A DNA stretch of 24,265 nucleotides from Candidatus Rokuibacteriota bacterium (GTDB taxonomy: Bacteria > Methylomirabilota > Methylomirabilia > Rokubacteriales > JACPHL01): assembly GCA_016188625.1 (NCBI GenBank), contig JACPHL010000142.1, forward strand, positions 1-24,265. Direction: 5' to 3'. Positions 9,320 to 12,711 of this stretch are shown here, one piece after another. Numbering within the stretch: position 1 is the stretch's first letter; each line of letters starts with the position of its first letter. The position numbers and the translations under genes were made by a program. The notes beneath the pieces are model-generated. The model was not told the DNA's origin. It saw only the letters and a list, made by a program, of their open reading frames with translations, and did no database searches.

Positions 9320-10390
9320 GTGTTTGAGAAGCTCCGGCTGTTCGAGGCCCGCTACGAGGAGTTGGGCCGGCTCCTCGGGGATCCGGCGGTCATCGCCTCC
9401 AAGACCGAGTACGCCCGGCTGGCCAAGGCCCGGGCCGAGCTCGAGGAGGTGGTACAGGTCTTCGGAGAGTACAAGGTGGTCCTGGCCCGCATCCAGGAGG
9501 CCAAGCGCATCCTGGCCGAGGAGCCGGATGCCGAGCTCCACCAGCTGGCCGAGGAGGAGCTGGCCGACTTCCGGGAGCGGGAGGCGGCCCTGGAGCGGCG
9601 CCTCAAGCTCCTCCTCGTCCCCCGGGACCCCGCCGACGACAAGAACGTCTTCCTCGAGATCCGGGCCGGGGCGGGCGGGGAGGAGGCGGCCCTCTTCGCC
9701 GCCGACCTGGCCCGGGCCTACGCGAAGTACGCCGAGCGTCAGGGGTGGCGGGTGGAGATGATCGCCAGCCACCCCACCGGGGTGGGCGGGTTCAAGGAGG
9801 TCACCCTCTTCCTCCAGGGGAAGGGGGCGTGGAGCCGGCTCAAGTACGAGCGCGGGGTCCACCGCGTCCAGCGGGTCCCCGTCACCGAGTCCAGCGGGCG
9901 GATCCACACCTCGACGGTCACGGTGGCGGTCCTCCCGGAGGCCGAGGAGGTGGATGTCCGGATCGAGGAGAAGGACCTCAAGATCGACGTCTTCCGCGCC
10001 TCGGGGCCGGGTGGGCAGGGGGTCAATACCACCGACTCCGCCGTGCGGATCACCCATCTCCCGACCGGCCTGGTCGTCACCTGCCAGGACGAGCGCTCGC
10101 AAATCAAGAATCGGGCCAAGGCCCTGCGGGTCCTCCGGGCCCGCCTGCTCGAGCAGGCCCAGGAGGAGCAGCGGGCCCAGATCGCCGCCGACCGCCGGCG
10201 CCAGGTGGGGACCGGGGAGCGGAGCGAGCGGATCCGGACGTACAACGTCCCCCAGGGGCGGGTGACCGACCACCGGATCGGCCTGACCCTCCACCGCCTC
10301 CCGGAGGTCCTGGAAGGGGACTTCGCCGAGCTGGTGGATGCCCTCCAGGCCTCGGACCAGGCCGGGCGGCTTCAGGAGCTGACCCGATGA
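9320..10390 (+). CDS. prfA: Peptide chain release factor 1
   Basis: A 356-residue class I release factor reading UAA and UAG on the ribosome. The stop-codon recognition tripeptide PVT (187-189, RF1 type rather than the SPF of RF2) lies in [15 protein letters not shown], and the peptidyl-transferase GGQ is at 231-233 in [14 protein letters not shown]. The N-terminal coiled-coil domain (1-100) and the C-terminal [15 protein letters not shown] are intact. GTG at 9320 is chosen from the alignment to known N-termini; CAGAGG lies 6 nt upstream. The 174 nt before it (9146-9319) hold no recognisable gene; the DUF1385 gene found between rpmE and prfA in some related orders is absent. prmC, whose product methylates Q233, follows. 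Confidence 0.95.
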
Positions 10391-10491
10391 GCCACCCGCT
10401 TTTCCCTGTCGCCACCCACCCCTGGTCCCGGGCGGTGGGGGGGCTTGGGGGGGGAGCGACGCCGCTCCCCCCCAAGGTGGACCGGTGAGCG
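10381..10491 (+). repeat. Intergenic repeat module, copy A (prfA/prmC junction)
   Basis: About 111 bp that recur at 12598-12711 with about 11 substitutions and one 3-bp indel. It begins inside the last prfA codons (GACCCGATGAGCCACCCGC), includes the prfA stop and ends on the prmC GTG. The core hairpin is 10448-10473: an 11-bp stem GGGGGGGAGCG/CGCTCCCCCCC with loop ACGC, extendable by CTT/AAG past a bulged G. The AAGGTGG that serves as prmC Shine-Dalgarno (10474-10480) touches the base of the stem. An ATG overlapping the prfA stop opens a 33-codon frame (10387-10488) that ends on the prmC start as GTGA. Confidence 0.9.
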
Positions 10492-11360
10492 CCGTCGCGA
10501 CCTCTCGTCCCGGCCCGCTCCTCCGGACGGCGATCGGACGCCTCCGGCGGGCCGGGCTGGCCACGGCCCGCCAGGACGCCGAGCGCCTCCTGGCCGAGAG
10601 CCTCGGAACCACGCGGCTCGGCCTCTACCTCGAGCCCGACCGGGTGGTCCCCCCGGACGCCCTCGATGAGTTCCGGAGGCTCCTCGACCGCCGCGCCCGG
10701 CACGAGCCGCTCCAGTACCTCGTCGGGTGGGAGGAGTTCCGAGGGCTCCGGCTCCGGGTGGGGCCCGGCGTCTTCATCCCGCGTCCCGAGACCGAGCTCC
10801 TGGTGGAGCGCGCCCTGGCCCTCCTCCCGGATCGGCCCGCCCGGGCGGTCGATCTCGGCACCGGTTCCGGGGCGGTCGCCCTGGCCCTGGCCGTGGCCCG
10901 CCCGGCGGTGTCGGTCTGGGCGGTGGAGCGCTCGGCCGAGGCGCGCGCCTGGGCCCGGGCCAATATCGGCGGCCTCGGGATGGGGGAGCGGGTCCGGCTC
11001 CTCGCGGGAGACCTCTGGGGTTCGCTGGCGGGGCACGGCCTCGAGGGGACCGTGGACCTCGTGGTCTCGAACCCCCCTTACATCCCGGCCGAGCAGCTCG
11101 CGGAGCTCCCCGAAGAGGTGCGCGCCCACGAGCCGCTCGAGGCCCTGGACGGCGGCCCGGGCGGGCTCGCTTTCCACCGGCGGATCCTGGACGGCGCCCC
11201 GGCGTTCCTCCGGCCCGGGGGGTTCCTGCTCCTGGAGATCGGGGAGGGGCAGGCGGCGCCCCTCGGGGAGCTGGCGGAGGCGGGAAGGGCCTTCGAGGCG
11301 CCGGTCTTCCACCGCGACCTCCCGGGGATCGAGCGGGTCCTGGAGGCGAGGCGCCGATGA
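10485..11360 (+). CDS. prmC: Peptide chain release factor N5-glutamine methyltransferase PrmC
   Basis: A 291-residue SAM-dependent methyltransferase that modifies the GGQ glutamine of release factors, increasing termination efficiency. The N-terminal helical substrate-binding domain (1-80) includes [16 protein letters not shown], followed by [11 protein letters not shown] (98-108). The Rossmann methyltransferase has the SAM motif DLGTGSG (123-129) and the catalytic NPPY at 196-199 in VVSNPPYIP. The GTG start at 10485 lies at the end of repeat copy A and is preceded by AAGGTGG. It overlaps the following murA by ATGA. Length and motifs are normal. Confidence 0.95.
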
Positions 11361-12607
11361 CGTCGCTCGAGATCGAAGGCGGCGTCCCGCTCCGCGGCGA
11401 GGTGGCCGTCTCCGCGGCGAAGAACGCGGCCCTGCCGATCCTCGCCGCCTCGCTCCTCACCGAGGAGCCGATCCACATCGAGAACCTCCCCCGCCTGGCC
11501 GACGTCCGGACCATTTCCCGGCTGCTCCAGGGGCTCGGCACCGAGATCACCGAGGCCGACGGCGGCGCGGTGGTCCGGACCCCCCGCCTGACCGGCCACG
11601 AGGCCCCCTACGAGCTGGTCTCCACGATGCGCGCCTCCGTCCTGGTCCTGGGCCCCCTCCTGGCGCGCAGCGGCCGGGCCCGGGTCGCCCTGCCGGGGGG
11701 GTGCGCCATCGGGGTGCGCCCGATCGATCTCCACCTCAAGGGCCTCGAGCGCCTCGGCGCGGAGATCACGCTCCGGAACGGCTACGTGGAGGCCCGGGCG
11801 AGGCGCCTCGTCGGGACCCGGATCAGCTTCGACCTGGTGACCGTCACCGGGACCGAGAACCTCATGATGGCCGCGGCCCTGGCCGAGGGGACCACCCTCC
11901 TCGAGAACGCGGCCCGCGAGCCCGAGGTCGCCGACCTCGCCCACCTCCTGATCGCCATGGGCGCGAAGATCGAGGGGGCGGGGAGCGAGCGGGTCGAGAT
12001 CCAGGGGGTCTCCGGGCTCGGCGGGGCGCGCCACCGGATCATCCCGGACCGGATCGAGGCCGGGACCTTCCTGGTGGCGGGGGCGATCACCGGCGGGGAG
12101 GTGACCCTCCGCGGCGCGATCCCCGATCACCTCACCGCGGTCCTGGCGAAGCTCGAGGAGGCCGGGGCGGCCGTCCAGAGCGGGGAGGACCGGGTCCGGG
12201 TCCGGGGCCCGGAGCGGCCGCGGCCGGCCGATGTCATCACCAACCCCTACCCCGGGCTCGCCACGGACATGCAGGCCCAGTTCATGGCCCTCCTCGGGCT
12301 GGCCGATGGGACCAGCGTGATCACCGAGACGATCTTCGAGAACCGGTTCATGCACGCCGCCGAGCTCCGGCGCCTCGGGGCCTCCATCGAGACCGAGGGG
12401 AACCGGGCGGTGGTGCGCGGGGTCCGGGGCTACCAGGGGGCGCCGGTCATGGCCACCGACCTCCGCGCCTCGGCCTCCCTGGTCCTGGCCGGGCTGGCGG
12501 CGCGCGGGGTCACGACCGTGTCGCGGGTCTACCACCTCGATCGCGGCTACGAGGCGATGGAGGTCAAGCTCGCCGGGCTGGGGGCCCGGATCAGGCGGAC
12601 CCGATGA
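11357..12607 (+). CDS. murA: UDP-N-acetylglucosamine 1-carboxyvinyltransferase MurA
   Basis: A 416-residue cytoplasmic enzyme adding enolpyruvate from PEP to UDP-GlcNAc, the first committed step of peptidoglycan synthesis. Conserved K22 in SAAKNAALP and the catalytic cysteine C116 in [15 protein letters not shown] are present, so the enzyme should be of the fosfomycin-sensitive type. The two inside-out alpha/beta domains are complete, with the conserved [15 protein letters not shown] and [10 protein letters not shown] segments. ATG at 11357 overlaps the prmC stop (ATGA). The last codons and stop are the left end of repeat copy B. Confidence 0.96.
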
Positions 12608-12711
12608 GCCACCCGCCTCTTCCTGTCGCCCCCCGCCCGCGCCCCCGGGCGGTGGGGGGGCTTGGGGGAGGAGCGACGCCGCTCCCCCCCGAGAAGGTGG
12701 ACCCGTGAGCG
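12598..12711 (+). repeat. Intergenic repeat module, copy B (murA/hisG junction)
   Basis: The second copy of the module at 10381-10491. It starts in the last murA codons (GACCCGATGAGCCACCCGC) and ends at the hisG GTG. The hairpin is kept (GGGGGAGGAGCG-ACGC-CGCTCCCCCCC) with one G-to-A mismatch in the stem, and GAG is inserted before AAGGTGG, moving the Shine-Dalgarno off the stem. The frame that opens at the overlapping ATG 12604 stays open for 34 codons to a GTGA on the hisG start. Most substitutions between copies change amino acids, so a conserved peptide is not supported. Confidence 0.9.

Follow-up and report, generated by a model that had tools for sequence, protein, structure and literature searches.

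A short intergenic module that recurs at the prfA/prmC and murA/hisG junctions of a Candidatus Rokuibacteriota bacterium is very likely a non-autonomous mobile element of the Rokubacteriales, about 95-98 nt long here, which inserts at TGA and duplicates it. Both copies lie in the 24,265-nucleotide stretch of DNA that was analysed, hereafter called the window. This interpretation is based on what the comparison of sequences shows: copies are dispersed, sites are unoccupied in relatives, TGA flanks the element left and right, and a covarying structured core is present across the order.

In outline, most surviving copies occupy TGA stop codons and are flanked left and right by TGA or NTGA. The target in the window's own genome (G000) would be the ATGA overlap of two genes, of which the left TGA would still stop the upstream gene. 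At the right end of the element, which reads AAGGTGGACCAG, the last G together with the right TGA would form GTGA; the downstream gene, hisG included, would thus acquire a ribosome-binding site and begin with GTG. The old start codon would open a 33-codon mini-ORF that closes on the right TGA, since the inserted length is 2 modulo 3, and ribosomes could in principle pass from the upstream gene through the mini-ORF to the downstream gene by reinitiation. Transposition would presumably occur in trans by a separate enzyme, for which the core may serve as the recognition structure.

Copies in the window and in its own genome

The G000 assembly comprises 2.6 Mb in 344 contigs and is 84% complete. 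An initial annotation of the window had described two copies of about 111 bp (10381-10491 and 12598-12711) sharing about 90% identity; the two copies stand, while alignment now places them at 10387-10488 and 12604-12708, 2.2 kb apart, with 87-88% identity and one 3-nt insertion (Table 1). As that annotation proposed, each extends from the end of the upstream gene to the GTG of the downstream gene, and the hairpin adjoins the ribosome-binding site; the left boundary lies at an ATGA stop overlap. The few shared bases 5' of ATGA are probably host sequence, since the relative G003 has CGATGAGC at its unoccupied murA/hisG junction. For this reason a CGA or GGA codon before the TGA, considered as a contribution of the element, was dropped; native ATGA overlaps on the same contigs, which often read SGATGA, argue against it as well. 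The core pattern, GGTGGGGGGG-YYT-GGGGGAGGAGCG-loop-CGCTCCCCCCCA, occurs twice in the window and in none of 100 dinucleotide shuffles of it.

Table 1. Positions of the element copies and their parts within the window
Feature	Position	Strand	Comparative observation
ATGA: prfA stop (TGA 10388-10390) overlapping putative former start codon; left TGA copy	10387-10390	+	insert-free overlap in 29 relatives
Element copy 1, last base the G completing GTG	10391-10485	+	
Mini-ORF of copy 1, 33 codons	10387-10488	+	
5' flank bases, proposed pairing with hairpin loop 10461-10462	10432-10433	+	covariation across family
Conserved GGTGGGGGGG tract, copy 1	10434-10443	+	
Core hairpin, copy 1: 5' arm 10444-10458, loop 10459-10462, 3' arm 10463-10476	10444-10476	+	
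AAGGTGG, ribosome-binding-site-like, from element copy 1	10474-10480	+	
GTGA: prmC start codon overlapping right TGA copy	10485-10488	+	
ATGA: murA stop (TGA 12605-12607) overlapping putative former start; left TGA copy	12604-12607	+	insert-free CGATGAGC in G003
Element copy 2 (longer by 3 nt), last base the G completing GTG	12608-12705	+	
Mini-ORF of copy 2, 34 codons	12604-12708	+	
Conserved GGTGGGGGGG tract, copy 2	12651-12660	+	
Core hairpin, copy 2, loop 12676-12679	12661-12693	+	
AAGGTGG, ribosome-binding-site-like, copy 2	12694-12700	+	
GTGA: hisG start codon overlapping right TGA copy	12705-12708	+	

A search of the whole 2.6 Mb recovered 21 near-full copies and two partial remnants (L022 and L023), and several of these copies are closer to copy 1 than copy 2 is. 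All 21 lie in sense with both flanking genes. In 19 of them (the exceptions being L013 and L020), an upstream frame of 78 codons or more terminates at a TGA located at, or adjacent to, the left end; in 19 (all save L006 and L013), a frame of 140 codons or more begins with the start codon of the right end; and 19 carry AAGGTGG or a one-base variant. The initial annotation had raised the question of whether copies always span stop to start; in G000 they nearly do so at each end, but in some relatives copies lie antisense at stops. The host junctions are ordinary operon neighbours at different gene pairs, including prfA/prmC, murA/hisG, gatC/gatA, leuS/lptE, obgE/proB, dnaJ/prmA, hemC/hemD and tmk/holB; the names were read from sequence, with Pfam support for ten proteins, nine of them downstream of near-full copies. 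Following the copy at L004, a gene read as trpS-like starts GTGAGCCACCCGCC (L004:1599-1625); this sequence resembles the element's left end, as though the first codons of the gene derived from a second, partial copy.

The mini-ORF is intact in 18 of the 21 copies, counting L019 (GTG for ATG); it is broken by one extra homopolymer base in L006 and L014, and L013 is without the end. Its changes number 21 synonymous and 52 non-synonymous, with 19 and 54 expected without selection. The substitutions therefore look neutral, which makes it unlikely that the peptide matters, while translation through the mini-ORF might. Both remnants keep its frame. At L022 (1501-1535), the first 35 nt of the element run in frame into a luciferase-like monooxygenase gene, whose 316-residue product begins with the first codons of the mini-ORF; at L023 (1501-1530), the last 30 nt close a nuoG-like gene, which ends in the mini-ORF tail ...LPPKVDQ* and is followed by a nuoH-like gene (nuo names read from sequence). 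A relay of ribosomes through the mini-ORF to the downstream gene is plausible from these sequences.

Unoccupied sites and the TGA target

Comparison with relatives shows both the mobility of the element and its target. The prfA|prmC junction is without an insert in 29 relatives, in which the TGA either overlaps the start codon (GTGA, ATGA, TTGA) or touches it as TGATG. Among 24 relatives compared at murA|hisG, 21 have an overlapping or touching stop and start and three have a short spacer; no element was seen at this junction in the 24, the 118-nt spacer of L301 being seen in part. In G003, the nearest relative by protein identity, murA|hisG reads CGATGAGCG, a sequence that matches the occupied G000 site on its left side (CGATGAG) and, save G for A, also on its right side (GTGAGCG); hisG starts with ATG in G003 and with GTG in G000. 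These sites were compared with other families, G000 being the only member of its own family among the genomes searched. Within genus g22, the joined flanks of the G048 copies at glmU|glmS and carA|carB are contiguous in the congeners G035 and G045, at 82-86% identity, with a base-level gap at a single TGA, although at glmU|glmS the G045 alignment is less clean, with its gap placed differently.

The distance from TGA to TGA in G000 is 98 nt in 15 copies, 101 in L018 and 99 in L006 and L014, while L003 gives 101 by script, or 98 when counted from the TGA within its ATGAG; the distance is 97-98 nt in most G003 copies and 84 in G048. The base preceding TGA is the same on the left and the right (NTGA) in four of five G048/G004 copies. 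In G000, A precedes the left TGA of nearly all copies and G the right TGA, which limits the duplication to 3 bp at most, as against 4 in g22. Many copies in G035 are reversed and bounded on either side by TCA. A scan without a shifted control counted 31 of 51 copies of G035, G048 and G004 in which a minus-strand frame of 80 codons or more terminates just past the right end. On the simplest reading of these sequences, the element inserts at TGA, in either orientation, and the TGA is duplicated. Outside the element, the window contains TGA 164 and 236 times on its two strands, and ATGA 26 and 73 times; given such frequencies, placement at gene ends only would need strong selection or targeting.

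Distribution and structure of the core

By sequence search, the core was found in 44 of the 59 genomes of the relatives search, own genome included. A covariance model built from 59 sequences, whose E-values are rough, detected it in 51 of 60 genomes of Rokubacteriales, an order of soil bacteria, and in none of 35 genomes from other orders of the class. The order-wide search was strictly filtered, so that copy numbers are lower bounds; within genus g22 alone they are 49, 20 and 0. No Rfam family matched in nine loci up to E = 1, viral contigs held no exact match to the core pattern, and open-access PMC returned nothing on point for Rokubacteria with 'repetitive extragenic palindromic' or with wider terms.

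The core is a bulged hairpin in which outer stem pairs covary (UA to CG; CG to UA or AU). The three bases that precede GGTGG form pairs with the loop in several versions (AGC/GCT, ACC/GGT, CCT/AGG, GCT/AGC). Double-changed cells number 45, the shuffled mean being 13.4, and 96.1% of cells are paired, compared with 54-74% with partners slid; since the kinship of sequences can inflate such shuffles, this covariation is support for the pairing and not proof of it. By eye, a copy from a different family (G002), with stem CAGGGGGAGGAGT/ACTCCCCCCCTG, flank CAACCCA and loop GGTTGGG, fits the same scheme. Folded as single sequences, copy 1 is weak (z -1.6) and copy 2 better (z -3.1). For the GGTGGGGGGG tract, a G-quadruplex or G-rich triplex was considered as a further candidate structure.

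Several loci show composite arrangements. A second G+C-rich hairpin (for example GCGCCGGCTTTGCCGGCGC or GCGCGGGCTTCGCCCGCGC) stands some 30-60 nt 5' of the core at L202, L205, L208, L214, L217 and L222 (G004), at L054, L056 and L177, and at L260, L264, L272 and L279 (G011), suggesting a two-hairpin composite unit. Head-to-tail tandems, with one TGA/TCA common to the units, occur in g22 (L200, L204, L210, L198 and L224, spacing about 83-84 nt) and in g11 (L079, L097 and L125, spacing 87-95 nt). At L034:1451-1545 and at L038, in two species of one genus, a full core is preceded, about 51 nt upstream, by a second copy of its left half (to GGAGCG).

Alternative explanations and known repeat systems

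The similarity of the window copies and their proximity might suggest that they arose by local duplication, or by gene conversion from one junction to its neighbour, yet at least 19 other genomic places carry the element, several of them closer to copy 1 than copy 2 is, and this explanation is refuted, its probability being negligible. The initial annotation had offered insertion or gene conversion that keeps both frames: insertion with both genes readable is retained, a dispersed mobile family takes the place of gene conversion, and the many copies, their stop-to-start placement in G000 and the hairpin beside the ribosome-binding site bear out a general element in place of a single duplication. 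The hairpin may, as that annotation also suggested, gate translation or act as a 3' stabiliser. That a translated family of small proteins of 33-34 residues is the selected feature is most improbable; the mini-ORF is mostly intact and one indel is exactly 3 nt, but its substitution pattern is neutral and the TGA-to-TGA spacing of G048 gives another frame.

A vertically inherited cis-regulatory RNA, acting on the downstream gene as a translation gate or a riboswitch-like leader, would account for the covarying pairs of the core and for the downstream start often lying 22-29 nt past the searched motif in relatives. At one junction, moreover, L108 (G026) and L122 (G054) both keep the hairpin 46-47 nt after the stop while the linker has largely diverged, a hint of function at some sites. 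Against it, the downstream genes have no common pathway, orthologous junctions of relatives are without the element, many G035 copies lie antisense at gene ends and Rfam gave no match; we consider it quite unlikely. It is very unlikely that the element is a REP-type palindrome mobilised by a RAYT, a Y1 tyrosine transposase. Such an origin would fit short intergenic hairpins without terminal inverted repeats and the GTGG-like motif 5' of the stem, as REPs can begin GTAG or GTGG. However, Y1 transposase (PF01797) was found in three of eight carriers and in none of G000 (84% complete), G026, G030, G003 and G057, despite at least 20 element copies in each; the TGA flanks are duplicated, with a single TGA in unoccupied sites, whereas known IS200/IS605 elements make no larger target duplications; and head-to-tail tandems are a rare form in REPs. 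The REP tag (GTAG/GTGG) sits directly at one end of the hairpin; in the element, GGTGG is conserved some 8-10 nt 5' of the stem with a G run between, and may or may not correspond to that tag.

The preferred reading, a TGA-targeting mobile element, invites comparison with several known systems. The element resembles MITEs in being short and non-autonomous, and in having unoccupied sites and a target duplication, and inspection of copies revealed no terminal inverted repeats, such as MITEs share with a DDE transposon, at its ends. REP/BIME repeats with RAYTs (PMC2817692, PMC3733652) are likewise numerous short intergenic hairpins without terminal inverted repeats, thought to be non-autonomous and mobile, and some families (CGTC repeats) are without an identified transposase (PMC2817692, PMC3733652). 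The element differs from them in several respects: its units are about 84-98 nt long and flanked left and right by TGA, its tandems run head to tail, a conserved 10-nt G tract separates the flank from the stem, the loop pairs with the flank, and most carriers are without Y1. Correia/NEMIS, ERIC, RUP, YPAL and RPE (PMC2229807) are similarly dispersed repeats of about 100-200 bp whose transcripts are highly structured and whose targets are duplicated, and some contain ORFs that continue in frame into neighbouring genes; most of these MITE-like repeats have terminal inverted repeats and TA ends and are A+T-rich, whereas the element is G+C-rich, shows no terminal inverted repeats, and has TGA as its target. 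The CIR repeats of Caulobacter (PMC2229807) share the intergenic location, separate stem-loops and absence of terminal inverted repeats, but carry GANTC motifs and stops in all frames, whereas the element lies at TGA and, in G000, is traversed by an ORF. Non-autonomous elements derived from IS200/IS605 (PMC2817692) also combine an absence of terminal inverted repeats with subterminal hairpins and a short fixed target beside the end; their target is not known to be duplicated, whereas the left and right flanks of the element vary together (NTGA, TCA), and most carriers have no Y1.

Reverse transcriptase (PF00078) is absent from G000, G035, G054, G011 and G048, and the IS110/IS1111 DEDD transposase (PF01548) from G000, G035, G054 and G026; as candidate mobilisers, neither these nor the Y1 transposase follow copy number. 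Among these three types of gene, no enzyme that moves the element was found, nor was a long element with the same ends. An integron attC cassette, which is likewise a structured hairpin, is not suggested by the TGA flanks. More tentatively, and on balance improbably, this could be a new kind of element, recognised as a folded pseudoknot in the form of RNA or single-stranded DNA and mobilised by an enzyme new to small repeats, with a bias for TGA stops that is enzymatic and not just a matter of selection, and with a G000 version that has become transparent to translation by evolution.

These junctions provide resolved unoccupied sites for a mobile element whose position coincides exactly with 4-bp overlaps between genes of essential operons. 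The rebuilt start codon and ribosome-binding site would offer a testable case of a repeat invading tight operons with translation unbroken, and the comparison defines a structured element family restricted, within the class searched, to one little-studied order.
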